A DNA stretch of 64,000 bases from Siniperca chuatsi. Taxonomy: Eukaryota; Chordata; Actinopteri; Centrarchiformes; Sinipercidae. The translations under genes were made by a program, and so were the position numbers. The number at the start of each line of letters is the position of its first letter. Position 1 is the stretch's first letter. Shown piece by piece: positions 22,201 through 61,700 of this stretch. The notes beneath the pieces were generated by a model. That model saw only the letters and a list, made by a program, of their open reading frames with translations, was not told the DNA's origin and did no database searches. Location: positions 15,535,833-15,599,832 of the forward strand of contig NC_058045.1 of the NCBI RefSeq assembly GCF_020085105.1, given 5' to 3'.

Positions 22201-22507
22201 ATTTCCTCACGCTTCATGTTTGTCATCCACTATCTCACAGAGACAATCTACTGAGAAGTACATCCACATAATCCTCCTCTCACTCCCTCTGTTTTTTCCC
22301 CACCTGTTTGCCTCTCAAAGCTTCTCGCTCCTCATTTCTCTCACAGACTCACTTTCCACTGAACAGCTCACTGATCAGTTCCCCCTCCCTCCTCTTCTCC
22401 CTCCCACCTTACCTCCTCCTCTCACTGTCACTGCGCTTCTCAAACTGAGGTGGGTCTTTTTTACACTCTCTCCCTCAGCTCCTTTCACTCTTTACTCTCA
22501 GGACGCG
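19300..22507. other. Intergenic and FGL2 5' flank, no gene seen
   Basis: About 3.2 kb without a supported gene. Short open frames here lack any recognisable domain. The 290 bases just before the FGL2 ATG are pyrimidine-rich and open in the FGL2 frame without an upstream in-frame ATG, as expected for a 5' UTR. Confidence 0.45.
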
Positions 22508-37200: not shown

Positions 37201-40200
37201 CCAGACTCAGGTATTGAAGGCTGAGACAGTTCCTGTTCGAAAATCAATAGTTAATAGTTAAGCTTTGTGTAGATTATAGCTGGTTGTTTTGTTGTTGATT
37301 TTTAACAAATGAAAAGGTGTACATTTGAGTACATAAACATTTTGTATTAGATATCTTCAAATTCTTGCATGGTAAAATGTGAAATATTTCCAGAACATTT
37401 TGCATAATGAGAGCTAATGACTGAAAACTGTTGAACCTGCAAATCTATCATCAATGCAATCATACAGTCCAAATGTTATAAGTGCCACATTTGTAACCTC
37501 TAAACCAAGCTGTTTTCAGACATGAAATGCGAGCCAGTAGTGGTCTGCACATTGGACAAACAAAAGTTTTTGTTTTTTTGTTCAATTTGGAGACCTGAGT
37601 GAGCTGGACCACAGTTTGGAGCACAAATCTCGTCACATGGTGTGATTTTTTTTTTTTTAACCACAACTGGAGGTTTACCTGGACAGTTCTCTTAGAGTTT
37701 TGTTTGTTATAAGTGTGCAAGAAAGGTTCAAGAAGAGCAGGCAGGGACAGCCCTCGACAATTCTCTGAACCATCACATCCTGTTAAAAAGCAGAGATTTA
37801 AATGTTACCTTAACTTCTCTCAGCAAGGCAACTGTTACTACAGTGTATGGCACAGTGTAATATCACAATCAACAGTGCAGTAACAAACATTTAAACTACT
37901 TGGTTTTCATGAAATGGAATCAATAAAACTGAGTAAAACTTGGAAAAATCCCACCAGACACTGAACAAATACTTATCTGTGACGTACTGCAAAATCTTAA
38001 TAGACAAATATATTGTAATCTTAGATAAAAGACGTTGTTCAATGGATATTTTCAATGATTTAATGTAGGACATGGCTGATTTTGCTATCATCTATACATT
38101 ATCATTAGTCTTAACAATGTTTTACTTACTGTAACATTAAAGCACTCTGACACATTGAGCTCCTGGAGATTTCTGCATTCACCTAAGAAAACAGAATGCA
38201 GAGAAAACAAGTAAAGAGCAGAGAAATGGCTGGTCTTTTGCTTTGCTATAATTATTATATGTACATTGTGATATGATAAAGTAATATACGACATTTTGTC
38301 TTCTTTCATAGCTGTATATACATATTCCTATCTCTTACATAATGTGCCAGCTCTCACTTCTTCCGCAAGGCAAGCAGCAGTTGTGTTCCATCAACAATAA
38401 CACTATTCACCTTTGACCCATTGCTTCTGTGTCCAAGCCTGTTTTCATAAGACTTTCATCCCAAACTCCTGCTTACTGAAAGGACAATCCCTGCAGGGCT
38501 CAGGATGCGTGTGACCTCCTCTCTCCTTATAGCCTCCCTGCTCCTCCTTCTGCTCCCGTCCACCGAGATGAAAAGACCGGGGAAGGGCAGAGGCCTCAGA
38601 GGAGCAAGACACAAACTCACACGGGACAGGTGTGGATTTACTCTTGGCTCTAATTTGTTCAATCCATTTTCACCTACTCTAATGATGATGTCTAGACTGC
38701 GACAAGACATGAAATTCATTCATTTTTTGTGTGTTTGAAAACTGTCAGGGTGAGAGGTGTTGGGCGTCACAGCAGATCAAGCCCCTCCAGGCGTGTGGCA
38801 CCTGACTGCTCAGTGTTGACAGAATCTGGAGACGTCTTTGTAGACTGTCAGGACCGACACCTCACCTCCATTCCCACCTCACAGACATGGTCCAAAAAAC
38901 CCAAGCACCTCCTTCTAGCCCGCAACCGGATCAAAGTCCTTCGTGATGGGGCCTTCTTTGGATATGAGAGTTTAACTAGTCTGGACTTGCAGCAGAATCA
39001 GATCTCTTTAGTGGAGGAAGGGGCCTTCCAGGGCCTGACACGCCTTACAACCCTGCTGCTGCAACACAACCGCCTGGGAACACTTAGTGAGGAGGCCCTC
39101 ATCCCCATGCCAAACCTTCACTACCTACGTCTATATGATAATCCCTGGAATTGTCTCTGCCAGATGGACAGTCTCATACTCACTCTGCAGGTCCCAAGAA
39201 ATCGTAATCTAGGAAAACATGCCAGGTGAGTGATTCCACAAAAAGTGTTTGATCTATTGCTCGGATTCCACAGGTGTCACATCTGATTTCACCGTGACTT
39301 AACAGTGTTTCCTCTTCTAGGTGTGCAGAGCCCATCAGGCTAAAAGGCATGAAGTTGAAGCAGGTTGATCCCGAGTTACTCTGTAAAGAGACAGACCCAA
39401 CGGGCGATCCACAGGGTGACCAAACAGATCTCACATACCCAGTAGAGCCCATTCCAATTCGCACCAAACCAGACGCCACCACGTCTTGCCATACTTACCT
39501 TTTCCCCCAAATACGGATGGACTGCAGAAACCGAGGCAAGCTCACAATCAGCTTTTATTTTCCTAAATCAGTTTGATTAATTGTACCCTACTCTGAGCCT
39601 CACTGTGTTTTTAGAAATTCAGCACACATGTTTCTTATGCAACAGAGAGGTTAGGAAAAATTTGTACCGTCATGTCAGAGAGCTCGTATGTTCATGATAA
39701 AATATTACTGTTGCATGACTGGAATAACTTAACTTCCATCTCTCAAAGGGCCAGACACAGAACTGGCAAAGAGACACATCTGGTTTAACAGGTGTTTTCT
39801 ATTCAAGGTTACGTTGCTTGCTTCCTTAACCTCTGACTGATGCTATGTTATCATCATTTGTCACCTTATGAACAACTTGGACAGCATTAATAATAAGAAT
39901 AAGTCTATTGCAAAACATGCGAGGCATTTTAAATTTGCCTGAGAATAGAGTAAATCAAATAGTGTGTACTCCTACTGGCAGGCCTGGATTTTAGTATCAA
40001 ATTCAGGTTATGGATAGAGGCAGAGTATGAATCTCTCTGTGCCAATTTCTCAGCTACTTGACTTGCAGTACTAACTTGCAGTAGTAAACTCAATCTTTGG
40101 CTTGACAAATTTGGATGGTAGAGATGAAAAATCTTAATTCTACTTAAAAAATAATAATACTCAACATGTGGACAAAGCAGTACTATTTTTTGGGTAAAAT

Positions 40201-43200
40201 AATCAAATGTAGTAACCCCTTCTCCTCGATGTTTAGGTCTAACTGAGGTGCCCACGGGTATTCCAGAGGATGTTGTTCATATCGATCTGTCCCATAATTC
40301 AATCCATCATCTCAGAGCCAGAGATTTCCAAGGAGCGAGGAGCCTCAGAACCCTTAACATCAGTAATAACAACATGGAGCACATTGACACAGGTATCTGT
40401 GTTATTATTACTGCATAGCTATTAATCATTATCAGTGAATATTACAGTAGGTGCTTTTTATTTCCTGTAATATCCAGGATGAAAACCTACACAAACAAAG
40501 TTGTGTTTTTCTTCGGCTTATGTGGAAAGCCAAAAGGTTGAGAATACATTACACAACTGCTGCTGACTTCTGTTTCCCATTTCTCATTTTTAGAGACAGC
40601 TGGCATTCTGCCATCTTTGTGTATACAGTATTGGCTTTATTTTGTAGTGGGAAAAGCTGAGAGGGTTACAGACATAAAATGATCACTGTGCTTTAGTTAT
40701 TCAGACACCAGCCCTCACATTCCTATCAGAGTTTGATTGCACCACTGGCTTTTACCTTTAGTAATGGTTAATAATAAACAGCAACAGGTCTGTCTAAATA
40801 TAACTATACTGAGACAAGCAAGCAACAAATGGATGCTATGCCCATGCATCTCTTTCTCTTTTCTCTCCCAGCTTCCCTGTCTGGGCTCCTGCACCTTCAT
40901 GAGCTGGACCTGTCAGACAACAGCCTGCATTTTTTTGAGTACGGGGTTCTTGAAGACCTTTACTTCCTGTCACAGCTAAAACTGGGGGGAAACCCCTGGG
41001 TGTGTGACTATAGGTGGGTTATTCTGCTCAAATGTTTATAATATTTTTTTAGACAAATGCAAATAATTATTAATAAGTGATTGCATTTTCTCAGCATCCA
41101 CTACTTGGTGTACTGGCTGCGTCTGCACCCAGGGGTGAAGCACTCTGGCCTGCTGTGTCGTTCACCTCCTGAACATACTGGGAAGAGTGTGGAGGAGTAT
41201 GTGCATTCCTACAACACAGAGTGTCCAAAAGACAGACAGCACAGCAGAACAGATCAAGACCAAACGGACCCTCAGCTATGGAACACACCAATGGAAGTGC
41301 AGGGAGAGCTGGAGGAGGAGCTGGAGCCGAGCCACTTAAGAGCACCGCAGAAATACCAGATCATCAGGCTGTCCTGACTCAGTCTGACCTAAAATTTGAC
41401 TTTAAAAAGGCTCTTTGTTTTCTCTTCTTTCTTAGTTTACAACATAATTTTCCATCTGTATCAGATGGAGAAACTACATTTTTCAGTGTTGCTTCTATGT
41501 TTTGTGTTGTCTTTTTAATCAAAATATAAGAATGATCAACTTTTTGACTGTTTTGACAATTTATTCCTATAAGAACATGATCTGTACAGGTCAATGCACA
41601 CCTAAATGAAACATGGGTATTGCTCATGAAACACTTGTGACAAAAAAACCCCCATAACATCTAGCAACCAAATGTGCAAAACTCACTGATACATTTCAAG
41701 CTGGGCCATTTTAGAGACGTGCAGCCACGCAGGTTGAGGTGGATCACAAATGGGCGGTAGTTCTGCAGAATCTGTTTCATTGTGCTGTCTGTTATCCAGT
41801 CTTTCTCCACAGAGAAGTTGATCTAACAGGGAAACACATCAGGGGACATTTCTTCTCCTGTTTCAAGTGCAACTTTAAACACTGCTATAAATTAAATACA
41901 AGAAGCAATCTCTCAGTACAGACCTGACTCCACAATGTGCCTGACTGGATGATAGCTTTCCATGTGCAACACACCTCAGCACAATTTAGCCAGTCTCGCA
42001 ATTCTAAATATTGAAAGATCTGCAGAGAAAACAATCATATGACATATTTGATTAATTCATTCAGAAACATTTGAATTTCGTCTCTATTTATTTGATTAAT
42101 ATCTAAGTACTTTAAGGTATTCATTTTATCCATTCTTCCATAATGTTCTTGTAAATAAATATATAATAAGGTTTAGGTTTTAATCTCACACAACCAGCTG
42201 TCACTATGGATTCATTGCCTCCTCTGCCGCTGCCACTTTGCAAGGCAGTGTGATGTAAGTGTACAAGCAGCCTCTTTCTTTCTCCAAACATAGTCATGTT
42301 GAAGCACAATTTATCGGGAGAAGTGTTGGACAGAAACACCAGAGCAAATAAAGCCAGAACTGCACTCCCTCTGCTAGCGAATGTGAATCCAACACAAACA
42401 GGGGCTACAACTACCAGAAAGTGGAAGCTGAGTCAGAAAGATGTTTACTGGAGTTTATAGAATATTTGTAAACTATACAGCCACTGGTATGAAACTACTC
42501 CTATAATTATATAAGATAAAAAAAAATATATGATATGCAAAAAACAAAACAAAAACACAACAACACAGCAACAGATCTTGTGAGAGAGTTGTCCCATAAA
42601 CACAACCATTTCTGTGGTAATGGCTAATAGGTATACCAGACCATAATGAGCTGCAACTGACTGATTAATCAACTGGCCTCAAAGAGACTGAGGGCATATT
42701 TACAGTGGAGTCCCCTTTAAGTCTTACGTAACAGATATGATCTCATCACTGACTGCTTTTAGAACAGAGACATGAAGCTGCTACAGCTTTAAATGCAGGG
42801 CTATCATCGCTCTAATCAGGCTCATGAACTATAAAGAAAACATGAGTGGCACATGAATGCTGTGTAGTTTAAGAGGCACTACCTTCAGTGAGAGGCTGCT
42901 AGGGAGCAGTGAGAGTCCATCACATCCTTCCCCAATCTGGTGGACTTGTTTGCCGATTTCAATAAACCCCATTTCCAACATCTGCAAGATTCATATAAAC
43001 AAGAAATGTAGAAAATTGCAAGAATTCAATATATTTGTTTACTTAAATTCCAAATAAATTTATACCTTAAAGTACTCTTTTGTCCTCTTTGAGTCCTTTG
43101 CAACATTACGCCATGCAGCTATGATGCGCTTAAGGTGGCCACTGTTTAAAAGTCTCTCAAGTTTCTCGATGGCAACTAAGTCAAAAAGAAATTTTAGTCT

Positions 43201-46200
43201 TGTTTCAAATGTCCATCACTTTTGAACAGAACAAGTATTTGCATTTCTGCATCCTTTTTTAGCAGAGGATAACATGTAACTAAATTATTGCAACAATATG
43301 ATCACAAAGTTGGATTGTACTGAATCTCAAGACAAATTTAGTTTATAAAAGTAGAGTCAAGTCTCAGAGTTTAAGAGTGAAAGGTGCAAGGGGCAGAATG
43401 AGTCACAAAAATGGGTGTATACAGTGGGGAAGACATGAGTGTCAGGAAAGACTTACAGTTTGGACACATTTCTTAACCACACTGCATGTTTTCTCTGGCT
43501 GTATACACGGAGAGTTACAGCTTGTAAAAACAGTCGATCCACATTAGTTAAGCAAAAGCTCCTCATGATTACTTTTTCATTCAGAAATACTTGAGTAATT
43601 ACCTACCAGCCTGTGTCTTCTTGTGTAATTTTACACAGTTTGACCATTTGGTGAGTGCAACTCGCTGGCATTTCCTCTCATAATGCTTCTTTGTCATGTC
43701 CATCTTCAGAGCCAGCTCTGTGGTTCCTCTCTTACTCTGCGTAGTGAACCTCTTCCACTTCCTGTCCCCAAACAGCAAACACAGCTCATCATTAATTCAG
43801 TGAAAAGGTACGCAGGCAGAACCTGCATGAACTCAACAGGACAGGAGTCAGTAACATAATATAATTTAATCTCAAGTAACTTTTTTTCTAACGATGATCT
43901 CAACTGAAGCAGGTTGGGACATTCAGACAGGACAGAGTGACTGAATGGACAAAAGGCCAACAATGCAGAAGTCTGCACTGACAATGGACAGGTGAAAGGC
44001 AATCTGTGAAATAGGATATCCTCTTTAACTCGTCAACTTGTTAACAATGATCCAGAGAAAACATTCAGGACTTTCATCCACATGGGTCAAATTTCTGCTT
44101 AGAGTTACATCTGAGTCACTCTCTCCTGGTATTATGGATGTTTCATTAATATTTTTGTGGATCAATTTCAGAGGCTTGAACTTTTTGTGTGTGAGAGGTT
44201 AGGTGAATGTATTGAATCTATGTCTTCCTATCACTCATGTACAATCTATATATATCCAAGACATGTGGATTTACAAAAAGACATGAAGAGGAAGGCAACA
44301 GATGTTTTATCATCTTCCAGATGAATTGCTGGATAGTGATATTTAAGCCATCACCATGCAGCCCTTTGAGTAAATGCTCATTTTCACACAGCACCAGCTG
44401 TCTACAATCACCTAATTGCAATCAGTGTAAGCAGAATCTGAAAAGTTTTAGTATCCTTCCTTGCACTTTTCCTTTTATTCCTTGCTCTCAAACTTTGTGG
44501 AGAAAGTAAGGGTAGAGCATGACTGATTGTTAACCGGGCTGGTAGTTTTAATCAACAGTCTGCTGCTGTTGCTGTAGGTGGACACTGTGATTGAACTCAC
44601 TGACATGGCTCTTCCATTTGGGTAAATAAAATACAAGTGTATTTTTGGCTAAATTTGTTACTGTCTGTTACTGTTTTTTCTATCCAACTTTGTTGTTTTT
44701 CAGGGTTTCTTGGATTTGCACTCTGTTGTTATGGGGCTGCATTTGTTTTCCTCCTCAAAAAGGTAAGAATTTCTGTATTATTCCCCGAACAGTGTTCAAC
44801 CATACCAACCATGTATTGTCTGTTTATTCCCTGATAGGTTACAATATTGCACATGGCTACTCTCTCAATGAAGATGAATTCAGTAGCCATGTAGGTGTGC
44901 TTGGTCCACAAACTTCAAACCAGTTTCATTCTGGAGCATCTTTAAACACAAACCATGACTCTTTCAGTCCAAGGGATGAGATGCAAGCTATGAGACTCCA
45001 AAACTTTGTTTCCCTTGAGAGTGAACCAGTACACCGTGAAAACAATGAGGATGCTAGCTCTGTTACTAGCCTCAGTGAAGAGATGGTGCAAAGCAAACCA
45101 GACTCAGGACATGAGCCAGATAAGTTTTTAGTGGCCCCCTCCGCTCCCCCTGAGCATGAAAGTTATGCTTATCGACACCCCTTTGGCTTTTTAGTGAAAG
45201 AGCACACACAACAGAAAACTATGGAGGGCATCAGTTTCCCAACAATCAACGATTTCAAACAGTTTATAGAGACAATGAAACGCTCCTTCTTAATGCCAGG
45301 AAGTGACTTGAGTAAACATTTTCAAACAGCACAGGAAGTTATGGAAAACGAGATAGCTTTTAATGCTCAAAATATTGAAGGAGAGCCTGACACAAGCTAT
45401 AGGTCTAATTCTGCACAAGAAGGCACTGCCCATGATGACGCCGGTGAAAATGAAGTCTGGAGTGAACCTATAAATACAGTGTTTGAACAAGGTGAACAGG
45501 GCGCCAACTACCAAATGCCAAGGGAAAGTCTCTTTGCCCCTGATCCTATCAACTACACAGCAAGTCTCATTTCTACCAGTGTTTATGACAACCAAGACTC
45601 GGGCCTGGACTCTGCTCTCTACCCACACCATCATTTAGCAGCCCCAGAGCATGTTTCAAGTAATTATGGAAGTTTTGACAACGGTGGCATTTCTGGGGAA
45701 AACCATGATATTTTCACAAATGCTCCTGATGTGGGAAACGAAGATATTCAGTCAACAAGCTACAAGCTCCCCGAACAAATACCCTCTGGCTTATTCTTTG
45801 GAGAGGGTTTTTCTTTTAGTGGCCAATTGACTGCATCCCCTGTCAACCCTCCAAACAGCCCATCTCAAGATTTCAGCTACTACTCAAGTGAGACATCCAA
45901 TATAACACCTCTAACCTCTGAGAAGAATATCCAACAACCAAACTATACAACTCACGGTAAAGACTCTTTAACAGGGTATCAAAAACCATCTGGTGGCTTT
46001 GAACTTGGTGAAGATTTCCAAAGTGAGGAGCTAGGCAGAGTGACTCCAGCCAATGTCCTTTCTGCCCCAAAGCCCCCGTCTTTGAATTCCTATGGCAAAA
46101 GTTTATATGTCAGTGCATCAAGAGGTCAACTCTACATCCCTGACAAACCAAAACACAGGGGAAGACAAAGCGTATCATTTCAGGCATATCAACCCGCTGT

Positions 46201-49200
46201 TGGCAAGGAATCAAAGGATATAAACTACACTCCCACCGTCCACCTGCGTGTATCTAGTGGCTCCGTTTCTTCAGGCTCTGAAAACCTTTCACCACAGAGT
46301 AGTAGTGGTCATGTGGGAGTTCAGACAAGCAGCCCACATGATGCTCAGAATGAAGTCCGATCCCACCCAGTGTTTACTGTGAAACCTTCCAGCTCTCTTC
46401 ACGGCTCAAGCAGGCATGATGGCTATCTCGGAGACCAGAGAGTCAGTGTTAATCAGGCAAAAGATGAGGAGAAATCAGACCCTTCCAAGCAGAATCTAGT
46501 CTCTGCCATTCAGGAACCAAAACAAATGACTGACAATACCCTGATTCCCATTTCTATTGGCTTAGATTCAACTCAGAGTGGTATCTCCTCTCAGGTTGGA
46601 GGTGGTTATGGAGATTTCAACTCTCTAACTAACTTAGCTCCAACGTCAGCATTGGAGAGAGCCTTTTCAAGATTAGTTGGCAATGAAGACATGTCCAGGA
46701 ACTTTGGCATCAAGAATAAGATCTCTGATAGGTTTCCAACTGGTGCTATACTTGGTGCCAGAAATCCCCAGGGCTCATTTTCTACCCCACAAAGACGAGG
46801 CATTAGTGGCTATGTGGGTGCAACCAGAGCTGGCCTTCTACAGACCTCCATACAACCGTCCAAAGTACGGAAGCGTCCAGCCAATGTGAATAAAGAGCCT
46901 GGCAACATGGCCTACTGGCCTCCTAAACCGCTGTCTGCAGCCAAAGTTTCTGGTTCTACTTTAAGTGGTGTCTTTCGGAGAAATGGTGGCAACACAAAAA
47001 GGCTTCCTCCTCAAACGGGCTCCAATATGTCACCATCTGTAAACACACATGTTGTGAAGTCCAGAAACAGCTATGTAAGGGGCAAAGTATCTCTATCAAA
47101 GACCCGTTACACACCATATCAGCTGGATGAAGGCAAAACCGGTAAACACCAATGGGATCCAAGGCAACGTAAATACAAGAACACTATATCCTACAATGTC
47201 AAAGGATTTGAAGAACAGTAAAGGTGAATCAACACTCTATCATCTATTATCTATCTAGTTTGCTGGTGAATATAACAGTTAGGTTTAGTTCTAATTAATC
47301 AAACACTTCTCACATCTCAAACTTCAAAATCAATTAAACTTAGGGGTAAATAAGACTACTTTTTTTAAAGCTGTAGGATTGCATTGGAGGCAAATATGCA
47401 AATACCAAAAATCTAGAGACAATTTACATCTAAAAGTCACTGTAGCCGACCAGCCTTTTGAGGAGAGGTAGAACTTGAGAACTTGAGAAAACGGCTGAAA
47501 AATTGACCTAGTATGAAAATTGTCTGTTGGTACTACAAGTTTGTTGTTTTTTGTCGTCTTTGCTATTATCGTAGGTGGAATTGCTGACAGCAAGTCCTTG
47601 TGCAAATATGGGTAAGTATTCATATTTTGAATGCTTAATGCTCACACAACTGAAAACTGAATTTGGAAATCAATTTTTTTTTTTTTGCCCCCCCCCCCAA
47701 AAGGATCTGTTGCCATCTTCAAATGGGAGGAAAATCAAGTTTCTGCAGTTCTACATACATCTGCTCTAATTAGTAAAGGCATGAACTTCAGTCTTGTTTA
47801 GCTAAAACTTCACTTAGTGCTTGTTAGGCTGCACTTTAGTCAAACAGGCTGACAAAAAAAGAAACTACTTGAATGGTGACGTGTCTAATGGCCCTTTGTT
47901 CCTTTTTCCACTCAAGAAATTCCTAATCAAACCCTCATGTGTTGATTGGGAAAGCAATACTGCAAGCCTACCTGAAGCAAGAGCTTGTTAAATGTTTCCT
48001 GTAACAGGAGTAGGCCTTCTCGAACAGACAAAAGGACAGCTAGAAAAGAATACGGAACAGCAATTATTATAAAAGCACTAAAACCAATATAATTTGAGTC
48101 TGAACAATGTGTCTGAGAAAGCTGGGCCTCAACCTGACTTTTGTATACTTGGTATGTATACTACTAAACCATACTGTACCATGGTGTCATGTGGGCCCAC
48201 ATAGACAGTGTCCACAGTCCTACGTGTCAGAGAGGTTGTTGCAGTGTGCTGTTCTGCATCAGCAACAAACTTGTGCCTCCAAAGAAGAAGGAAGTTGAAA
48301 TCAAAACAGATCGTGTCTAGTGTGCATTTGTATCTTTGAATGATTTGGAGCTCACAGACAGATTTAACAGAAACCGTATGCTACTTAACTGTTAAAAATA
48401 GTAATGGAGTTATTAGTTACTAGTGGAAGAAGTAATACATGTTATGTCAAGATTAAACCGTTGTAAATGTACATGACCTGTAGTGACCACTCGTTTAACT
48501 TTAAAACATGATTTTTCAAAATTAACAAAGACCATATAATATTCTCCATCAAAAATGTTCTCTAAAAATGAATTATGCCTGTAAGTGCTGACACTGGTGC
48601 TTAGGATCCCCAGGGGTGTTGCTTTTGAAAGTCACTTTAAGTACAGTGGTGAAGGTCTAGAAAATCTATGTACTGTACATCCACATAGAGAACTTAATTG
48701 TTGCGAGTATGTACTTAAAGAGGCACTTAAAAATCTGTTACTGTGAGCAAATGAACAATGGTGGGCAATGTAACCAGAGTAGGACATGATGCAATTGGAA
48801 ACACAATGTGACTCATTTTAGTTTAGTTTTGTACAAGCTTTCCCTTTCAGTGACTTACATTTTGGGGTCAGAGATGGAATGTAGAGGAAAAATTAGGTTT
48901 TCTTTGACATGGACTTTTAATCTTCACTCCTCAACATTTGTCAGCCTACTATGACTGTCACTCCCAGCAGTAAAATAAAACTTGAGAAAGTGAGCCACCA
49001 AGTGTCCGTCTCAAGGAAAGTCACAAGAAAGCAGGTCTACCTACCAGTCAACATCCTGAAGATTATCATGCCCCTGCAAGGCCATAAGAGTGTCTTTCAG
49101 AAACTGTATTGGGTCACTGGGACATGACAGGCATGAAGCTGTCAATAAGGCCTATTGTCAAAGAAAATGAAATAAAGATAGGAATTACTTTTCACATTCA

Positions 49201-49455
49201 GGAAAAATAAATATTCAAGTGGTGATAAGTCAACTACATAGGTAGTAATCAAACAGTGAACTGAATGTGCATTAACTACTTAAGAACTGACCTGAGCTCA
49301 TGTTTTCTGTAACGTTACATGTAACTAACTAGCTTAACTAACATAACGTTACCAACATTTCTACACAAGACAACTTCGCTTACCTTATATATTTGTGGCA
49401 GGCAGTGTTTCAGTTCGCACTCTTTCAGAAGAGGCTTTGCGTTTGCTACAGCCAT
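34291..49455 (-). CDS. fbxl13: FBXL13 (DRC6), F-box and leucine-rich repeat protein 13
   Basis: Twenty-one minus-strand exons: 49455-49384, 49151-49045, 48276-48224, 48039-47972, 43757-43607, 43175-43066, 42981-42883, 42019-41924, 41822-41687, 38182-38130, 37779-37679, 37232-37103, 36628-36530, 36334-36214, 36105-35943, 35853-35734, 35643-35520, 35420-35340, 34979-34845, 34732-34569, 34483-34291. Phases agree throughout, giving 791 residues (human 735). The F-box spans about 212-252 (LSLKIFQYLELRDWLNCAEV, WKAII, LWSQ). Cysteine-containing leucine-rich repeats follow to about 725 (HLNLSGC, ELNVSHCSQITD, ELDVSGC). A Trp-rich tail ends the protein. FBXL13 is DRC6 of the nexin-dynein regulatory complex in motile cilia; a ubiquitin-ligase role is also reported. 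Acceptor 43757 for exon 5 is the least certain junction; a site four bases upstream would break phase. An X-box lies 134 bases before the ATG. LRRC17 and a second gene are nested on the other strand. Confidence 0.92.
35051..35080. repeat. (ATCT)n microsatellite
   Basis: Seven to eight clean tetranucleotide units in an FBXL13 intron. Confidence 0.95.
38505..41377 (+). CDS. lrrc17: LRRC17, secreted leucine-rich repeat protein, nested in FBXL13
   Basis: Six exons: 38505-38629, 38749-39225, 39321-39535, 40237-40392, 40872-41013, 41095-41377, phases consistent, 465 residues (human 441). Residues 1-20 are a signal peptide (MRVTSSLLIASLLLLLLPST). Two LRR blocks follow, each with a C-terminal cap (NPWNCLC and NPWVCDY). 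The second block closely matches human: DCRNRGLTEVPTGIP, LDLSDNSLHFFEYGVLEDLY, SIHYLVYWL, NTECPKD. LRRC17 is an extracellular protein reported to restrain RANKL-driven osteoclast formation. The whole gene lies within one FBXL13 intron (38183-41686) on the opposite strand, as in human. Intron 3 has a GC donor (CGAG/GCAAGC); only this junction restores the conserved DC.....L..VP..IP sequence. Start chosen for the signal peptide. Confidence 0.93.
44605..47221 (+). CDS. Unrecognised secreted, cysteine-free, disordered protein nested in FBXL13
   Basis: Three exons, 44605-44621, 44704-44762 and 44838-47221, join in phase (2, then 1) to give 819 residues. The two tiny first exons build MALPFGVSWICTLLLWGCIC, a clear signal peptide with likely cleavage before FPPQKG; reading through the introns instead loses it. 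The mature part has no cysteine that I can find. It is rich in Ser, Asn, Gln, Pro and Gly, and has N-glycosylation sequons (NYTASL, SNITPL, NYTTHG). The N-terminal two thirds are acidic; the last 170 residues are basic with aromatic residues (RQRKYKNTISYNVKG). This suggests an extracellular matrix, egg-coat or mineralisation-type protein, but I recognise no family. A donor just after the stop (AAAG/GTGAAT) and an acceptor near 47574 hint at a 3' UTR intron. The gene lies wholly in FBXL13 intron 4, antisense to it. The unbroken 2.4 kb frame makes chance unlikely. Confidence 0.75.
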
Positions 49456-49588
49456 ATCTTGTCTTTGACACATTTGCAAAGTAGAATTATTATCGAGGTA
49501 TGGAGTACCTTACTAACTAGCTAGCGCTTGTTTCATTTAGCGTTTGTCAGATTTTGCCTGGTGCTCCATCTCCCTTTGGAAGTTCAAC

Positions 49589-49601
49589 GTTGCCAGGTAA
49601 C
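49589..49601 (-). promoter_or_regulatory. X-box (RFX site) upstream of FBXL13
   Basis: GTTGCCAGGTAAC fits the RFX X-box consensus GTNRCC, 0-3 bases, RGYAAC at both half-sites. It lies 134 bases upstream of the FBXL13 ATG. RFX factors with FOXJ1 drive motile-cilia genes, and FBXL13 encodes a dynein regulatory complex subunit, so the site is probably functional. Confidence 0.75.
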
Positions 49602-49851
49602 GAAGCAAGTAAAACTTCTAAGTAACGTTGGACAACTAATGCGTTGCAGCAAGATTTAAATGTAACGTAGTGTACAGGGTCAACGGTGTGACTCACGTGA
49701 ATTTTCAGTTAACAAATTACACATGTTAACAGTTTAACCCTAACACTTTTGTTCCAAAAATATTTTGAAAGCTAAGATTTTGTTTATAGCTAGAAACTCA
49801 TTGCTAATCACCCAGCAAAAGATTTGGTCGGCCACTCCGAGCTGGCCGCGG

Positions 49852-50303
49852 TGTTGCCAGATTGGGCGGTTTAGCGTTTTAAATGCAATGACTGACATGT
49901 GATTACTGCCAAAAAACTTCAATTCATTGTTTATTACAACTAAGTTGAAACTTTTCCTATTCCAATTATTATTCTGTCATAGCTATATGGCAAAAGACTT
50001 GTAAAAACTTGCATCTGTTCATATGAGAAACTTTTAACGTTAAATGTAACATCCAAAAGACGTTTGTTATTTATGACTTCTATTATAAATGATCATTTGT
50101 TTCATTATTGTAACCGTGGTTTTGAGTTTGTCTAATGATACTGATAAAACAGAAGACCGGAGACGATAGGACCGCTTATTATTATTCTTGCTCGTATTTT
50201 AACTTATATTTTTTCTTAAATTAACATTAGAAATTGGGTTAAATTTAAGACGATTGGACGGGCTCTGATTGGGCTACTTTTTTGTCTGTCCAATCTGGCA
50301 ACA
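49852..50303. repeat. Segment bounded by a 14-base inverted repeat
   Basis: TGTTGCCAGATTGG at 49852-49865 is repeated as its exact reverse complement at 50290-50303. The 452-base segment fills much of the space between FBXL13 and ARMC10. It may be a MITE, or a pair of GTTGCC half X-box and ATTGG (CCAAT) composites. No target duplication is evident. Confidence 0.6.
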
Positions 50304-50572
50304 ATGGCTGTCCGGAACAACGGAGCAGAACGTCACTGTTGACAACTGTGGCTTGTCAGCAAACTTCACCAGGTTTCAGAACAATGAATCTGTCAAAGAT
50401 GAGTTTCGATGGGCTTTTTAGTGGTTTCGATGGGTTGTCGTCAGTGCTAGCTAACTAAGGAGCCGGGTTAGTTAACTGGTGAATCAACAGATTTGACAAA
50501 ACGTTTCGAAGCATCTGTAGCATCGCGTTAGCTAGCTAGCTAGCTGAGCTTAGCTAAAGACATAGCAGCAGC

Positions 50573-52660
50573 ATGGGTGATGGCAGTGTTACTCCCAGGC
50601 TCGGCAACATGAAAGCGTTACTTGGAATAGTTGCCGGAGCTGGGGCCTCCTACGGGATATACAAACTTATCAGCGGGGGAAGCTTCAAGAGAAACAAGAA
50701 AAGTGCCACAAACGAAAGTCCCGGTGTCAGGAGCAGTCAGCCCAGCGAAGTTACCCTACAGCCGGGGAGCCTGCTGGCCAAAGTGTCTGGACTGGATGTT
50801 GTCTGCCCCCGACCTGATGTTGCATCAGGTAAGAACCATAGATCTCATAAAGCTACTAATACTCACAGTAACTACAGCTAAACCTGTGCGATTGTTCCAG
50901 CTAAGTGAATACCTCAAGATAATTCCTCAAAGTGTCCTGTGTCTAAACACTTTTCCAAAACACCCATAGTAATTCCCTAAATATGGTCACATCTTTTATA
51001 TCAAGAGTTTAATAAAACATCATTGAGAGTCTCCTCCAGTGCACACACATACTAAATATCATTAAATGTTTGTTAAATGGCTTATTTTGATCCATAGGGG
51101 ACATCACCCACCAGTCCCCTGGCAACCTGGAGCCACAGCACTTGAAAATGCTGCTGTCATGTCTGCAGACCAGCAATAATCCATCCGACAGATGTCGGAT
51201 CCTGCTTACATTAGGAAATGCTGCTGCCTTCACTGTGAATCAGGTACAGTAAAAGTATACTTTCTCTAAAACCTACAAGTGAGGTTAGTACTGGTTGCTT
51301 TATTGTAACATTGTAAGTTATCTAATTAAAAATGTGTAGCTGTTGTATTTTGTCAGTGATCTCACTCAAGGTTCTGTATATACCTTTTGGCGTTATATAT
51401 CTCTTTTCAGCCATGTAATATAATTTGCCTTTTTTCACTAATCCTCCAGAATCTAATACGGAAATTTGAAGGGATTCATATCATAGCTGGTTTCCTCTCT
51501 GATCCTGCGGCAGAGGTCAGAGTGCAGACTCTGAATGCTTTAAATAATCTGTGTATGAACATCCAAAACCTGGAACAAATAAAGGTATGTTGCTGTAAAC
51601 TGTACAGCAAATAGCATGCAATCTGTTACCGAGTATGAGATCTTTTTGGTTATATATCATGTTTCCTATTTTTTTTGTGGAAGAAACCAAAATCACCTTG
51701 TCTTATAGGTTTATGTGCCACAAGTGCTGGAGCTGATTGAGATGTCGCCAGTGAATTCTGACCTTCAGCTTGGAGCTCTAAGGCTGCTGACAAACCTTTC
51801 AGTCACAGATAAACATCAACACTTGCTGAAGGAATCAATTACACTTTTACTCTCTCTACTTGTCGTGAGCAATGAAGCATTACAGGTTGGTATCTTTTCA
51901 TATGGCACCTAGTTGATCTTCTTCACATTTTTCCAAAATCAGTTGTCTAAAGCTATAAAAGTTCTTTTTAAACAATTCTCATATTATGATAATACTGTAT
52001 TGATACCATTTTGGAACATTTGAAAAGTTGTAGCTCTTGTTGAAAAACAGATAAGGCCGGTGAGCTGTGAATGCTGTATGAATGAATTAAGCACTTCTAA
52101 TATTTGTGTTTCAGGTTCAGACTTTAAAAGTCCTTGTGAATTTGTCATCAAATCCGGATTTGATAGATGACATTGTTCAAGCTCAGGTAAGAATAACGGG
52201 ATAAAAATGCAGTCTTTATCTGACCCTCTTCATGTAAGTCAACCGGTGCAGTTTGTATGTTTTTATATAATACACAGCAAGTTAGCATGGCTCTGTGGTA
52301 AGAGGTCATCAAAACTAATTTTTTTTATTCAAACTGTTGTGACAACGGTCCAAGTTTCATTGTGAATCCTCATTTCGATTTTGTTTTTTCCCCTTTTTTT
52401 GCCTTTAGGCACCAGCTTCAGTTGTGGTGCTGTTTGACGCACGAACAACCCCTGCAGTGCTTCTGCGACTGCTGACGTTTGCAGGGAACTTAAAGGCCTG
52501 GAGGCCCTCTGCCCAGGTGGCTGATGAACTGAGGCGAAAGCAGGATTGCCTCTTCCGGGTCATGTTAGATGAGTCTTCCCAGCTCCACAGCAGACTGGTC
52601 CAGCTGCTTTCACACCCCGATGGGGAGATTCAGGCCCAGGTGGCTCGTATCTTGACATAG
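50573..52660 (+). CDS. armc10: ARMC10, armadillo repeat protein of the mitochondrial outer membrane
   Basis: Six exons: 50573-50828, 51098-51243, 51450-51584, 51709-51885, 52115-52186, 52409-52660. All are GT-AG and in phase, giving 345 residues (human 343). An N-terminal membrane anchor lies at about 13-33 (MKALLGIVAGAGASYGIYKL), followed by a short basic stretch and a Ser-rich linker. Armadillo repeats run from about residue 100: ILLTLGNAAAFTVNQ, VQTLNALNNL, LGALRLLTNLSVTD and VLVNLSSNPDL. Human has LITLGNNAAFSVNQ and ALNNLSVN at the same places. ARMC10 sits in the mitochondrial outer membrane and is linked to Miro/TRAK mitochondrial transport and AMPK-driven fission. It is divergent from FBXL13, with 1.1 kb between the two start codons, as in the human pair. 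Start chosen because it opens the membrane anchor; a second ATG lies 12 codons in. Confidence 0.93.
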
Positions 52661-55600
52661 ACGTCCCTCTCTGCACTCTTGATCCATGCACAGCTTTCGC
52701 TTCCACACACTTTGCCAAAGCCATCAACCTATCGCCCTTCCCGTTCTATTATAAATCTGTTAACCTTTATAAAAGCTGCGTAGCCTCCTGTGGATACTCA
52801 GCTTACACTCAAATACTCTCTATACCTACAGTGTTCCCTAGATCAATATTATTACCACACATAACTAAATTATCTATTCCACCTCACCAGCCACTCTTCC
52901 CTGATTTCTGGTTTCTTACACTACAATTAATTGAGCAATGAGTGAGCAGGAAGCAACTATTCATTCAGCGTATAAACAGGCCACCCCTCCCTGTTTTTTT
53001 TGTTTTTTGTTTTTTTTCCTGCCAGCAAGAGCTTTCTTCTCATTGCCAGAGACTATTTTCCTTCAAAGATCCACAGTGCCCTTCCTTCTGAGAACTTCAC
53101 CTACTTTCTCTGAAGACATGTTCCAGGTGAAACTTTTGAACCCAAACCCACTGCCAAACATTTTCTAGAGAATGTGCTAGAACGACCTGTGCAGCATGAC
53201 CCAACTTACTACCCGTCTGTGGTTCAGAGAGACACTTAGCTGAAGAGGTTTCTTGCCGCATGCCTTGGAGACACAAATGAATGGATGTGCTGTAGCACCA
53301 GTCCTCGCTAATTTATCAACATGTTGGATTTAAAGATCATGGTCTTTGTCCAATGAAAGCAAGATCTTTTATCTATGTATTTAATTTGAGAATTAGTGAA
53401 TCACGACTTCGGAAGAGCCAAAGTGAGGTTAACCTACTCACGTTGGCCTCACGTTCTGTGACAGTGTGAGTTCAGTGTATTGGGAAGACTTTAGAGTGGA
53501 AACACTGCCTCCCCCGCTTTAAGAGTTAGCTGAGACACCTGGTGAGGATGCAACCTGGGTAAAGGTACCTGAGAGAAAACCCCAGGGTTGATCCAGGATG
53601 TACAGCTTGAAAATAAATGGAGGAGGGGTTGACCTCTGACAAAGCAGCCTGTAACAGTGATATTAGCTGTGATTGTTGTATTTGAACATTTTTCTGCATA
53701 AAATGGTTATCGAATTACAACAGTAAATGTTAAATTCAAGCCTTGTTATGTTATGCACTTACTGTAATAAGACAGGCTGTAAGTGACAGATCCACATGTC
53801 TAGCTGGAGGACTGGAGCTGTGGACCCATCTGCTGACTTATTAATATTTACAGAGAGGAGGATGGGTGTAGGTGCCGACCTCTAATTTGCATGAAAAATG
53901 TGACGATTATCCTGGAATATGATTTTTAATGCAAGGATTTTATGGCATGAGCCAATCCAGGTGTAAAGAAATGCTGCACTTTTTTATGTTTGGACACTGA
54001 CTTTATTGAACCCAAATCCTAAATATCTCTCAGGCAATATGGTTTACCAGAACAGATACAGCAGGAGGCTGATTTCCTTGTGACCTAGATTATCATATTT
54101 ATTGAATGAAGTTTGTCAGCATTTTGCCTATAAAATGACAAATATTGTTTGTTATGTCTATATGAATGGTTCAGTAAATACCCTATATGACATATTATGG
54201 ACGTCCATGTCTTTATTTCTCCTGTTTACTCAAATATATTAAACTAGATACATTTGACTGAATTTGTGACAAGTTCTGCTGTTGTAAGATGGTAGGCTGT
54301 GCGGTTGGAACTGCTTTTTGGCTTTGTCAGTTCAAAGTCTGCATATACCATCTTAAAGACAACAAGAATCGGAGGATTCCTGTCCAGGTATGACGTAGAG
54401 AAGAAACCGCACAACTCTCAAGCAATTTTATATTCACCTCATTCACAATGATGCTGCTGCTAGAGTCATAACAAAGTTGAAGAACACTAAACACATTTAT
54501 TTCACTAAAAGGTTTCAATTACTGCTGCTTTTCAATACATTTCTCAATGGCCTAGGACTAAAATACATCTCCAATTGTCTTTTATTGTGAATTTCCTCAG
54601 CCTCTCAGGTCATCTGGTTGGGGTCTTCTAACTGTCCAGAGTCCAAACGAAATATGTAGAAGAAACATTTAGTTCAAAGAGGCTATGAACTAAGCACCAC
54701 AGCGTTGGAACAAATGTCCAGAAGATATGAGACAACCCCAACTTATCCAGGTCAAAAACCTTTATGTTCTCCACCGCCTTTGACAGATCCTCAAAGGGTT
54801 ACTCCAGAGATTTAGTGCTGCTCATTCATAAAGCTGTAGGATTCAACAAAGAGATTCAAAAAGAATCGAAGCAGCAAAAGCTGAGATATCCTGACCTTTA
54901 GTCCCTAGTGTGGGTCGATCTCCAAAAACACTGGGTCCTATTTTCCCACAACTCTGTGTAGTTCTATTAGGCTTTCCCTGACTGGTAAAAGCCAACTTCT
55001 TTCAAACTCTGCACCTTAAGTTTGTAACGCAGGCTTCCTGTAAAATAAATCAAGGCCTCAAGCCAAATTTAATATAACCCTGATGACATAATCAAGAGTT
55101 ATTTTCTCAGACTTTAGAAAGCTCCCTCCAGAGCCAAAAGACATTATACAACAGTTTTCACAGGCTGAGAGTGCCCCTTTAAGCACTTATCATCCATCTT
55201 GCACTTTCATCATTTCTAACTTCTCTGGTTTTTTTTCTCTGCTAAACTTCTTTCTAACGTTTGAATTTACATTTTAATGATTTATGCTGAATTTCCTTAA
55301 TTTTGCAAAGCACTTTGAATTGCCGTTATGTATTAAATGTGCTCAAATACAAATAAAGTCCCTTGGACAAATGGTGATTTTTTTTGTGATGTGGGCGCAG
55401 ATGATGAATTTTGACAACCCTTTCAAATGAGGCTGATTTAGCACTGATGATGATGCGTTCAGGTCTTTGTCTCCTCCTCCCTCCCTCGCCCCCTCCCTCG
55501 CCCCCTCGCCTACATACAGCCTCCTCCCCCCTCTGAACAGACGAGTTGACCATCGGTGGCTCATCCTGTGCTCCCTCAGAGCCACACACCGCGGATCTGT

Positions 55601-55736
55601 GAGTGCAGGCAGCCAGGCGACCACAACCCAGCGCACCGATTAGGGGGCGCAAAACATTTCGGTTTAGCCGCATCAGCTATGAACAGCCACAACGTCAAGT
55701 AGACGTAGAAGCTCTCACACCATAAACGCATCGAGG
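52661..55736. other. ARMC10 3' UTR and spacer to DENND5B
   Basis: No further gene is visible. AATAAA occurs near 53612 and the 3' UTR probably ends there or later. The last 300 bases before DENND5B become GC-rich, with a CCCTCCCTCGCC-type tract at about 55473-55515, likely part of its promoter. Confidence 0.45.
55470..55736 (+). promoter_or_regulatory. DENND5B promoter and 5' UTR region
   Basis: A C/T-rich tract contains CCCTCCCTCGCCCC repeated in tandem at about 55479-55508, suited to Sp/KLF factors. GC-rich sequence then runs to the ATG at 55737. No TATA box is seen. Confidence 0.45.
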
Positions 55737-58700
55737 ATGAACGGGTCTGCAGCGGCCACAGGATCGGCTTCTTGCCGTTTCGCCCACTATTTTGTTGTGT
55801 GTGGAGTGGACACGGAGACGGGCCTAGAGCCGGACGACGGAGCAGGTAGTTGGTCGATAAACATGATCGAAACAAAGCCGCACTACACTACCCGAGCATA
55901 TGTTTCATGCCATGCTGTATGTAAAACATTTGCCATTTCATGTCGGCCTATTTGTGTGTGTGTCGGGGTGACAGCCATTTAAATAGAGTTTGATTGGACG
56001 CCACATTCCTCTTCCTTTCAAAGCGTTGTTGACAACATACAACCTGCGAGTAGCCTGTGTAGAATAGCTTATGTTATGGCCAATACAATTTTATTTTTAA
56101 CAAATTTCATTAGAATTTGCTAATACGTTTTTTTTTTTTGGCAGAATTTGTGTGGTGGTTTTCTGAACCTATACGGTATATTTTTTGAGTTTGAAACAGA
56201 AAAATCCAAGAGAATGATCATTTTCCTATGAACTTGAAGCAATTTGATTGAATTTAAAAAGACCACTATACTGTGTCACCCTATAGTCTTGTCCTTTAGT
56301 ATAATCTCTGCTTGGGGAAAACGCATTACAGTTCTGTAAATTGTGTTTTGATCATATTTTCAAGACTATACTGTAAGTCAATTGAGAATATAGCTTTGTT
56401 GGTTTTTGCAAGTCATCCACTGCTACACCTGAATAAGGAACATAGCAGAGAAAGGCTTGAATAGAGGGAGGACAACAGCATCCTTTCCTGCCCAGTAAAG
56501 CTGGAACACAGCTGGAGCAGTGGTTCATGGTTAACACAGTGTGAGAAAGAGCTCCCAGATTACACTGTTGTGTAAATGTAAAAGCAGTGTTAATCTATGT
56601 CATGTGGCTGGTTCGTCTGTTCGGCTCTCTCGTCCTCTTCCTGCTCTCAAACAGAGATGGACCCTTTGTCACCTCTGTCCTTTTCTCACCAAAAGCCAAA
56701 GGTGTGGAAGGAAGCTAAAGGAAATGGATGCTGTAATGTTGGTGGATGCGGGGGTTGCCACGGTGATGACAGCTGCAGTGGGTGATGGTTTATTTGTGTT
56801 GGATAGAAATCGAGATATCAGGTGGTGCTGCGTTCCTCCACACTGAGCTGTTGACATTCAGCTGAGGACAGATTCACCCAGGAGCTCTTTGTGACGTCTC
56901 CGTGCCTCCCACTCTTTGAGAGGGAAAAGAACCGTGCAGGTGTGCTGAGTGCCAGCATCTTGAACGTCACTTCCAGGTTTGCAAACAGTAGTCACACCGT
57001 GTATTCTTTGGAAATGTTGCTCATGTAGAGCAGCTTTTCTCTTTCAGCCAAATGTCTTTTGAGTAATAGCACAAAGTCAGACAAGAAAAATGCATATGTA
57101 GGATGAGCTCTGTATCATGTTGGTACACATAGCTCTGCTGCAGATTATTTACTGCTCTAACTAACCATCTGGGACTTTGATGGCTCTCTCCCTGCGGCGA
57201 GTGACAGCGCTGCTGGCTAGTGTATCTGGGCGCCAGCAATCTGCTTATGTAACAGCAGGTCATCTCAGACCCACTGCAGCAGGGGGCTCTGCTCCTTTCA
57301 AGGGATTTCTGTCCCTTTTACATACACATATTCTGTAAGCTGTAGTCAAGCAAGAGATGTTAATTCTTTCATGTACACCAGCCTTATAAGTGTTTGGATG
57401 TGTGAGGTCATACAGTGTCTCTTATTGTGTGTAATTAGTGAATGCTTACCAAGAAACAATCTGCTCTTGTTGGCTTCTCAATAGATGCCACTGTGTTTTC
57501 TGCAGCCTAATCAAATTTCACATGACGTTGCCTGTTGGCGTGCTGAATGGCAGAGGCTTCAGGGCCGGTTCGGGCCTGATGAGTGTCACAGGGGGATGAC
57601 ATCAGTGTAGGGCAAGAACTCCCTGACCGAAACATCTGAGAACTTCTTTATAATGTCGAACATTATAAAGAAGTGAACTGAACTGCAAAGAGATGTATAT
57701 GTTTTGCACTTGTCCTATTAACAAATGTGCTGCTTGTACGCAGAAATGTTGAGTTATTTTATTTTTAGGCACTCAACACTTACTTTTATCATTTTTATTT
57801 TAAGCATATGAGCCCAGAACCAACGTCTGTGTCTAAGGCTGAGATGAAAAGCTAAATTTGTCTATTTTCTTTTTTTTGTCATATGATTCACCTTCAGTGG
57901 ACAGACAAATCTGCAATGCAAAGACGCAGTGATTTAAACAGTTTGAGCCAAAAAGGAATAACTCCTCATCAGTCACTGCCAGCTGACATTTGCTGTAATT
58001 TTAATCTCTTTCCACTTTTTATATCTGTTCTCGTCTATTCACGTAACGATGTGATAAATGGGACGGTGGGGGTAATTCAGTTGGTGAATATGACAGATGT
58101 CTACCTTCATGGCTGTCCCTGATTCAGTGTGCCTGTTTTAGGGATGGGGGAGCATTCGGGGCCATACATTTTTGTGATGAATGTCTAAACTATGGCATGA
58201 ATATGAAACACTTTGTTGTTTTTGTCCTCCAAAAATATTGACAGTATTGATATTTCAGTGACAGAGACTTTCATGTACTGAGGATTAGAGCTGAAAGTCG
58301 ATTAGTCGATAGACTAACTAGAAAATTAATCAGCATCTATTTTTGTTAATCAAGTAATCGTTAAATTATTATTTTTTTTTTTTTTTTTGCAGAAATGCCA
58401 AACCTTAACTAGTTCCTGCATTTCAACTGTGAGGATTTGCTGGTTTTCTTTGTTTTATGTGATAGTAACCTGAATATATTTGGGTTGTTAAACTCCTGGT
58501 CGGACAAAACAAGCACTTTGAAGACGTCACCTTGGATTTTAGGAGATTATGATGGACAGTTGTCACTATTTTCTGACGTGTTTCGGACCAAACGATTAAT
58601 CGATGAAAATCAAGAAAATAATAGGCAGATTAAATGATTATGAAAATTCTCATTAGTTGCAGCCCTTTTGATGACGTAAAGTATTCAGCAAATCATAGCT

Positions 58701-61700
58701 CGTAGACGGTTTCTACTGTGTGTATGTTAATGTGGTAAGAGGAGGAAACATGCTAATTACAGCCCAACTGAAACAGGCATTTAAGCTTTCATTCAAACAC
58801 GAACAACAAACCTCCCTCTCACTCTGTTCTGTTAACACAGAAAGACTGCGGCTGAATGTGAACTCTTTGGTGGGAACTCATGTCAGGAGGAGTGTGGCTT
58901 TCAACTGGGTCAGCTGATGACTCTCTGGGTGACGTAACCACTGACGAGCTTTGTCTTGATGGCTATCTTTGAGGCCACAGTGGAAATTGCTACCATGGCA
59001 ACTAGGTGTCCGTCTGTGAGGCTTGATTCTGCCTCTCAGCGCCTACACCAATTTGTATCTGTAGCAAAGAACATTGACTTCCCCCTTATAGACACTGTGA
59101 TCCATTAGCTTCTGTCTCCCACCTACCAGTCTGACTCAGTTAAACTTGTGATGCTCCTTTCTCACTCTACCTGTGGCGCAGTTTTCCTCTCTCGGGATGC
59201 TGTACGTCATCTCATAGGCAGGTGAGGTGGCTGTTCCTAAATGCTGAATGATTGCGTCAAAGCTGGCAACTGAGAGAAGATGGTTAGTTTGCCATTTGCC
59301 GTTGTTTTTGTTCTTGTAACGCAGTGATGTCAGTTAAAAAAAGAGTACTATTCAAGGGCATCCCCTCAGATGTGTGGATGAATAATGTAAAGTACCTCAA
59401 TCACTACTGTCAATCAGTTACACACACTGAATCATACACACACACACACACACACAGTTTATTTGTATCTGTTTTTCACTTATGCTCACACATACAGCAG
59501 TCTGTGTGTAACCGGAGCTCGAAGCTGACACAAGGTGCAGAGGCTGAAGAGGGGAGAAACTTGAGCCAGACAGGGAAATGCATCAAATCTGAGCATTGTG
59601 AATGTAGGACTATATAATAAAGTTTTCTTGCATGCTCTGCAAATTCAATCCTTTCATATACACACAGTTGTTATATTGAATCCTTTATCCGGAGCCTGAG
59701 CGCTCTTGATGTATGAAAAGGCAGCATATTTTCATCCTGTGCACTCCCTACAAGCATAAAGAGTTTCCTACTGCAGAGGGTCAGGGATGAGGGGTGTTGT
59801 ACCGCTTTTCCAGTATATCTCTATGGTAATGAGTTGAGTTACATAACCCTTGGAATGGTTTTTCCCTCTTTGCTGCAGAATGGTCCTAGCTGTCGACAAC
59901 AACTGTCTGAGCTTTTTCATACATCAAAGCTGCTGTCATTTTGTGACGTCCTCTGTTCTGTCCTTTTCATCTTTATAATGAATTCTTTCTCAGCAGTGAT
60001 GGAGGTCAAAGATCACTGTACTGCTATGACAATGCCATAATTATCTTTTTCTGTGCATCTGTCTGTCTTTCAGGCGAGGGCTTTGAGCAGAGCCCCATTC
60101 GCCGGTCCTTTAAGTCAAAGGTTCTGGTGCACTACCCTGAAAGCACAGACAGGAACCCCTTCAATAAAGATGCTGTCAACATGGTGAGCTCTTGGATCGC
60201 ACATAAATGCTCCCCCTCAGTGTTGTTCATTTTCTCTCACAAAAATAGAAATGATAAGGAAGGATGAGATGTGCCTTGTTAGTTGGGCAAATGTTCCATC
60301 CAGTGTATGTGAATATTGTGACAAATGACAAAAGAGGAACATGATAACAAAATCAACTGGGGGGAAAAAAGTGTAGTAGGAGCCATTTATCTTCGCTTGT
60401 TTGCTGCCTCTCATAGAAAACAATCTTCTTTCTTTTTTTTTTGTATAAATACACAGAACATATTTATTATCTGTTAGAAAAGCAGGTCAGGATGATGAAA
60501 CCATAAGACTCAAAAGAATTGTTAGCAGTCAGATGGAATTAAATTTAATGTCATACTTGCCTTTTTCACATCAAAATTTGTTTTGAACAGCCTCCCAGTA
60601 GACACCACAGTATTATGTGTTATTTATTTATGGTATCATTTATTATGGTATGTATTTTTTTAATGTAATTGTATTGTGGTTTCAGACCCTGAAACAGCTA
60701 CATTTGCAGGCAGCACAAATACAACAAAACATAGAACAAATACTGGTCGTGGGGTACTCAAACATATACAGTACATACATTCTCATAAGTTATTCCATAT
60801 TTAACAATTAAGTTACTTGTTCCGCAACTTGTTTTGTATAATTGATACACTTTCTCAATTTCTGTCAAAAATATTTCCTTTAATCTAAACCCTCTTTGAT
60901 GTTTTCTCCTCCCTTTCTTTCTCAACACTTCTCCTCAGCTCTGTATGCCGAGGGGTCTTTCCTTCCGCACGCAGGCAGACAGGCTGGATACTCAGTTTCA
61001 CTCATTCACGATGTCTTTTGACGACGGTGCACGTTCCTACGGCTTTGTTCACACCTTCTATGAGGAGGTGACCAGTGCTCAGATCATCACTGCCATGCAG
61101 ACTCTCTACCAGATGCACCATGTGGAGCACCATTCGGCTTCATCTGCCTCTTCGCCCTCACCCTCGTCCTCGTCTTCATCTGCCTCCTCGCCTTCCACCT
61201 CCAGCATGGACTCGCTTGTGAGCAGCTTGGATGAGTCAGACGCTGAGTCTCTGGCCGGGGTGTCCGCCTGCCTCGGCTGCGCAGGCTCCTTCGATCCAGC
61301 ACGGGACACTCTGTATGTGTCCAAAGCCCTCTGCCTCCTCACGCCGCTCCCCTTCCTTCAAGCTGCTCGACAGTTTCTGTCTCAGCTGCACCAGGGTGTG
61401 GTGTCACAGACAGCCCCACCCCTCCCTTTAGAGAGCTACATCCATAATATCTTGTACGAAGTGCCCCTGCCTCCTCCTGGGAGGTCGCTGAGGTTCCACG
61501 GGGTGCAGGGACCCATCGTGTGCCAGCGGCCTGGCCCGGGTGAGCTTCCGCTGGGGGAGTATCCTCTTGGAGAGGCATTCTCCCTGCTGGGTGTCGACAA
61601 TATGATGCAACTACTTACCTGTGCACTTCTGGAGACACAAGTCCTGCTTTGCTCTCACAGTAAGCACACACATTCAGTTATTAGCATGCTTGAGATGACA

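Follow-up and report, generated by a model that had tools for sequence, protein, structure and literature searches.

Does the long open frame on the plus strand at positions 44605–47221 of a 64,000-nucleotide (nt) window of the Siniperca chuatsi genome (contig NC_058045.1, 15,535,833 to 15,599,832) represent a real gene, and if so, what kind of protein would it make? The window is the whole stretch of DNA that was analysed, and positions are counted from its first letter. Our analysis indicates that the region is very probably a real gene with three coding exons, located antisense within an intron of a host gene taken to be FBXL13, in part from synteny. Its transcription is inferred from the sequence, and its predicted product is an 819-residue protein that, given the gene, most likely enters the secretory pathway by means of a leader spliced together from exons 1 and 2. 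The gene model is as follows.

44605–44621, plus strand: coding exon 1, 17 nt, encoding residues 1–5 and two bases of codon 6
44622–44703, plus strand: intron 1, 82 nt, phase 2, GT-AG
44704–44762, plus strand: coding exon 2, 59 nt, encoding the hydrophobic core of the leader and all three Cys residues
44763–44837, plus strand: intron 2, 75 nt, phase 1, GT-AG
44838–47221, plus strand: coding exon 3, 2384 nt including the stop codon TAA, with 793 whole codons and zero Cys codons

As read from the DNA, the three exons join in phase into a frame of 819 residues that ends in TAA. The ATG of exon 1 has G at both −3 and +4. The first-pass annotation had described a 2.4 kb open frame joined to two tiny upstream exons in matching phase, and this arrangement held, with GT-AG introns in phases 2 and 1. 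It had missed that intron 2 has a length divisible by three and contains no in-frame stop, so that an intron-retaining form would keep the frame open; for the same reason, the list of open reading frames (ORFs) shows an 858-residue frame starting from an upstream TTG. Retention of intron 2 would add 25 residues, one Cys among them, directly after the leader.

The open frame was compared with chance expectation in several ways. The stop-free run extends over 863 codons, passing through intron 2, and exon 3 alone accounts for 793. In simulated 64 kb sequences (40 per Markov order), the longest open runs for orders 1, 2, and 5 were 207, 227, and 221 codons, respectively, and simulations from the composition of exon 3 itself (orders 1 and 2, 200 sequences each) reached a maximum of 240 codons. 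Each of the remaining five frames of the exon 3 region contained 34–66 stops. The period-3 ratio of exon 3 was 16.0. Compared with 189 control stretches of the same length (median 1.7), this value ranked fourth of 190 in the window, behind three stretches that start at 22.8–23.4 kb and lie within its other long ORF. None of the 793 codons of exon 3 encodes Cys, against 15.6 expected from the codon-position composition (Poisson probability of zero, 1.7e-7), and the two other plus-strand frames contained 11 of 792 and 41 of 792 Cys codons. Four clean-framed coding stretches of the window had 9, 4, 6, and 4 Cys codons against 7.7, 6.9, 5.1, and 2.4 expected, respectively; a fifth stretch was out of frame and was dropped from this comparison.

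The upstream exons were examined in the same manner. In the 600 nt upstream, exactly one ATG with a two-intron model met the splice thresholds. The 796 control positions, taken from both strands, yielded an open model of any kind in one case and an equally hydrophobic leader in none; this control is post hoc, the thresholds being the splice scores of the observed model with the second donor relaxed by 2. Because the open length, the period-3 signal, the purge of Cys codons, and the spliced leader all exceed chance, the region was taken as a coding gene. A chance open frame, a pseudogene, or a non-coding transcript would fit the failure to find a homologue in the searched collections, as well as a GC content at third codon positions (GC3) of 0.387, close to the GC content of the flanks (0.37–0.39). 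However, the same four features argue against such an origin, which appears most improbable.

All three Cys residues of the 819-residue product are located in the leader, at positions 11, 18, and 20. The best 10-residue Kyte-Doolittle mean of the leader was 2.34, and the best 19-residue mean was 1.88 in the leader versus 0.64 beyond it, indicating that the remainder of the chain lacks the hydrophobicity needed to span a membrane. A putative cleavage site after Cys20, preceded by Cys-x-Cys, was placed by the −3/−1 rule, and cleavage there would release a Cys-free mature chain of 799 residues and about 87 kDa. The annotation had claimed a signal peptide formed only by splicing and a Cys-free mature protein of about 795 residues. 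The former was found as a hydrophobic, signal-peptide-like leader that none of the 796 controls equalled, and the latter agrees with the model apart from the slightly different length.

A different reading is that the protein is intracellular and disordered, with a leader that is accidental or confined to a minor isoform and with translation starting within exon 3. Cys depletion and disorder likewise suit proteins of intracellular condensates, an in-frame Met is present at residue 74, and glycosylation sites are not enriched. Nevertheless, the sole splice model that passes the thresholds yields a hydrophobic leader, which no control does, and every Cys is confined to that leader; an intracellular protein is therefore quite unlikely. 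The exported chain could also be a precursor from which cleavage at dibasic sites releases shorter active fragments, as seven dibasic positions (two of them overlapping) occur in the product, six of them past residue 670. Against this, neither an R-x-[KR]-R furin site nor repeated peptide units were found in the product, and the chain is far longer than usual peptide precursors, making this alternative very unlikely.

The product contains 111 Ser, 68 Gly, 61 Pro, 52 Asn, 50 Glu, 49 Leu, and 48 Gln among its 819 residues. The description "Ser/Asn/Gln-rich" in the first-pass annotation was thus correct for the three residues named, but Gly and Pro belong alongside them. Charge is segregated along the chain to an extent matched by none of 5000 shuffles: residues 21–400 have a net charge of −36 and an isoelectric point (pI) of 4.56, residues 401–640 a net charge of −1, and residues 641–819 a net charge of +23 and a pI of 10.95 with seven Tyr. 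The basic, Tyr-containing end was therefore as claimed, whereas "acidic for most of its length" applies to residues 21–400 and not to the roughly neutral residues 401–640. Asp and Glu make up 4.5% and 6.3% of the mature chain, respectively, which corresponds to 10.8% of its 799 residues and 14.2% of residues 21–400.

FoldIndex was below zero in 78% of 51-residue windows. An AlphaFold2 model of exon 3, computed from the single sequence without an alignment and hence weak, had a mean predicted local distance difference test (pLDDT) score of 36.6, with 737 of 793 residues below 50; at this mean score, fold matches would be meaningless. Apart from the two helices listed below, the model contained one shorter helix and short strands. 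In these predictions, the exported chain looks mostly disordered.

44840–45961, plus strand: acidic part of exon 3, residues 27–400
45245–45376, plus strand: longest predicted helices, residues 162–176 and 182–205 (residues 136–150 and 156–179 of exon 3), block pLDDT 50–67 in the single-sequence model
46682–47218, plus strand: basic C-terminal block, residues 641–819

These properties are consistent with a protein that is secreted and disordered and whose charge blocks make it a scaffold for a coat or matrix outside the cell, which we propose tentatively as the likeliest role; the term "extracellular structural protein" used in the annotation is plausible for such a sequence. The exported chains would associate by opposite charge, the acidic N-terminal part binding to the basic C-terminal block, possibly assisted by the short helical pair, and the associated chains could form a coat or matrix that is hydrated and perhaps locked in place by crosslinks through Gln/Lys or Tyr. 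Both self-association and the matrix role are inferred from the sequence. A bolder version is rather doubtful: the product would represent a protein family, so far undescribed, of secreted polyampholytes with charge blocks and no Cys, which arose inside an FBXL13 intron in fishes and form an extracellular coat by coacervation of their own acidic and basic ends.

Several observations weigh against the scaffold reading or the gene model beneath it. The matrix role is read from composition alone, the whole-chain FoldIndex is barely negative (−0.026), and internal repeats, which many structural proteins have, were not found in the product. Neither Lys nor Arg precedes the hydrophobic core of the leader, the first such residue being number 25. 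The chain contains 6 N-glycosylation sites versus 9.3 in shuffles, 5 S-x-E sites versus 6.9 (P(≥) 0.84), and 14 Ser-Gly sites versus 9.1 (P 0.06), the last being a slight excess and not a clear enrichment; export thus gains no support from typical secretory modification. The period-3 ratios of 300-nt pieces of exon 3 were 1.5–5.8, and only 1.5–1.6 in three of the seven pieces, indicating that the signature is weak in part of the exon. The four clean-framed coding stretches have a higher GC3 (0.556–0.718) than the gene; a fifth stretch, with a value of 0.390, was cut out of frame. Finally, no homologue was found in Pfam, PDB, NCBIfam, or the fish's own genome.

One setting of the coat or matrix reading, overlapping with it, is the egg coat: the product could be an oocyte-made, secreted, non-ZP component of the envelope or perivitelline space that is hardened by crosslinking. 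The Gln, Lys, and Tyr content and a disordered chain free of Cys would suit a partner in a crosslinked coat, and nine CANNTG E-box-type matches, including CAGGTG and CAGCTG, are present in about 1 kb upstream, although such matches are common by chance and were counted without a control. On the other hand, a full oestrogen-response element was not found in the 1 kb upstream, which contains two half-sites only. The ZP domain is reported to be conserved among egg-envelope proteins (PMC9330664), and uncharacterised chorion proteins turned out to carry ZP domains (PMC13079451). ZP-domain egg-envelope proteins (choriogenins, ZP2/ZP3) are secreted coat proteins, as proposed for the product, but the latter has no Cys in its mature chain, and no ZP domain was found by Pfam at E ≤ 1, so that membership in this family was rejected. 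An egg-coat role is accordingly unlikely.

A mineralisation matrix of otolith, bone, or enameloid was considered as another setting, in which a Starmaker- or SCPP-like protein would bind calcium through its acidic disordered part. The secreted-looking, disordered product with an acidic first half would fit this role. Members of the SCPP family, among them SPP1, DSPP, and AMBN, likewise have a small leader exon followed by a disordered secreted chain. S-x-E phosphorylation sites are typical of their mature chains, and Pfam holds models of known members. In contrast, the S-x-E sites of the product are not enriched, it has no Pfam match at E ≤ 1, and its introns are in phases 2 and 1; membership in the SCPP family was rejected on these grounds. 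SCPP introns are described as virtually all of phase 0 (PMC6732285). Starmaker and Starmaker-like proteins of the otolith matrix resemble the product in its predicted secretion, its disorder, and its paucity of order-promoting residues, disorder being indicated here by FoldIndex and the single-sequence AlphaFold2 model. In a comparison by composition, not by sequence, the product is far less acidic and has a strongly basic C-terminal block: according to PMC4260845, medaka Starmaker-like (Stm-l) contains 16.9% Asp and 20.4% Glu, or 37% in sum, against the 10.8% found here. The same source reports that medaka Stm-l and zebrafish Starmaker (Stm) have no sequence similarity, illustrating fast divergence. 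The mineralisation reading is weakened by this mismatch in intron phases, acidity, and phosphorylation-type sites, and it appears decidedly unlikely.

The search for relatives covered protein families, structures, and the genome itself. The product had no Pfam family at E ≤ 1 and no NCBIfam match, and exon 3 had no PDB match at E ≤ 1; residues 1–221 gave two chance-level PDB matches (E 0.19 and 1.1). In the fish's own genome, queries with exon 3, residues 121–213, and residues 647–819 returned the locus itself and no second copy, and exon 3 additionally gave one chance-level place on C6 (E 6.6, 39% identity over 46 residues, with one stop). The same search recovered 104 places for a neighbouring fibrinogen exon, showing that it works for a globular domain, while old disordered copies may escape it. 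In the 49,801 bases around a C23 relative of that fibrinogen gene, the relative itself being excluded, the product, the host exons in joined form, and the pieces of LRRC17 and FAM185A described below all lacked a match at E ≤ 1. A lax tblastn search within the window gave five additional weak places (E 0.30–7.6), taken as chance, and none of 29 prokaryotic and 6 viral stretches matching a peptide pattern encodes a relative. No fish gene nested at this place was found among the titles and abstract openings listed from the open-licence PMC literature, so that one may still have been published. In public annotation of fish genomes, the gene may well already be entered as an uncharacterised locus. 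Human NFE4, which we take to lie inside FBXL13, was considered as a counterpart and then dropped.

If expressed and conserved, the gene would contribute a secreted protein of considerable size in which no known domain is recognised. It would belong to a class, the disordered proteins of coats and matrices, whose members often escape homology searches and whose very small leader exons tend to be overlooked. If other fishes share the position inside FBXL13, synteny would provide a handle for orthologues where similarity may fail.

Candidate signals flanking the coding exons are listed below.

44340–44346, plus strand: TATA-like TATTTAA, a possible but weak promoter
44427–44577, plus strand: GTAAGC...TGTAG, a putative 5′ untranslated region (UTR) intron read by eye
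47333–47338, plus strand: ATTAAA, a possible poly(A) signal about 110 nt past the stop

A second TATA-type string, TATATA, is located at 44247 on the plus strand. Further downstream, the plus-strand stretch 47576–47612 resembles a mini-exon, with an acceptor TCGTAG, then GTGGA...ATGG, and then GTAAGT. Its layout is similar to that of the first coding exon, and it is perhaps a 3′UTR exon, a relic, or a duplicated first exon.

The exons of the host gene were found through the minus-strand splice-site listing, and the following were placed around the nested gene.

49455–49453 (ATG) to 49384, minus strand: first coding exon of the host, read from the DNA
49045–49151, minus strand: host exon 2, with a phase 2 end that fits host exon 3
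43762–49044, minus strand: host intron 2, 5,283 nt, holding the whole plus-strand gene, with boundaries read from the DNA
43607–43761, minus strand: host exon 3, from the splice-site listing and DNA reading
41924–42019, minus strand: host F-box exon, from the splice-site listing and Pfam

From the DNA alone, host exons 49151–49045 and 43761–43607 join in phase, so that no intervening exon is needed, although one may exist. The minus-strand exons encode F-box and LRR domains according to Pfam. Their best PDB match was F-box/LRR-repeat protein 2 (E 9.9e-26), and FBXL13 itself was not among the matches. The N-terminal pieces with the F-box gave weak PDB matches, the best to an F-box protein (E 0.075), and three whole-frame read-throughs of the minus strand at 47222–62218 gave no PDB match. 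Host exon 2 holds DPIQFLK, which was read by eye as part of a docking/dimerisation domain. The name FBXL13 was assigned because of this reading and two neighbours, a plus-strand LRR gene at about 38.8 kb, which we take to be LRRC17, and an ORF at 29.7 kb, presumably FAM185A-like. FBXL13 is listed with a docking/dimerisation domain in PMC8339350. The annotation's statement that the gene is hidden antisense inside FBXL13 was borne out to the extent that it lies wholly within the host intron.

The LRR exon at 38729–39229 on the plus strand (Pfam LRR) is antisense in another host intron, so that two genes seem to be nested in the host on its opposite strand. The presumed LRRC17 resembles the gene under study in this respect but differs from it in encoding an LRR protein and in lying between later host exons. 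The intron that holds the gene contains four two-copy direct repeat families and three inverted pairs (20–24 nt, 75–81% alike), which we take as due to chance, and Rfam gave no match in 43000–50500 at gathering scores. A plus-strand gene, read by eye and presumably ARMC10, is arranged head-to-head with the host: its ATG, at about 50573, is about 1.1 kb away from the host ATG at 49455 on the minus strand. At 22220–27735, a plus-strand fibrinogen-domain gene, which we take to be FGL2-like, has a first-exon ORF of more than 1,100 codons (1117 counted), in which a very long stretch, charged and rich in Lys and Pro, precedes the fibrinogen exon at 27031. The C23 relative is 71% identical over residues 121–234 of this exon.

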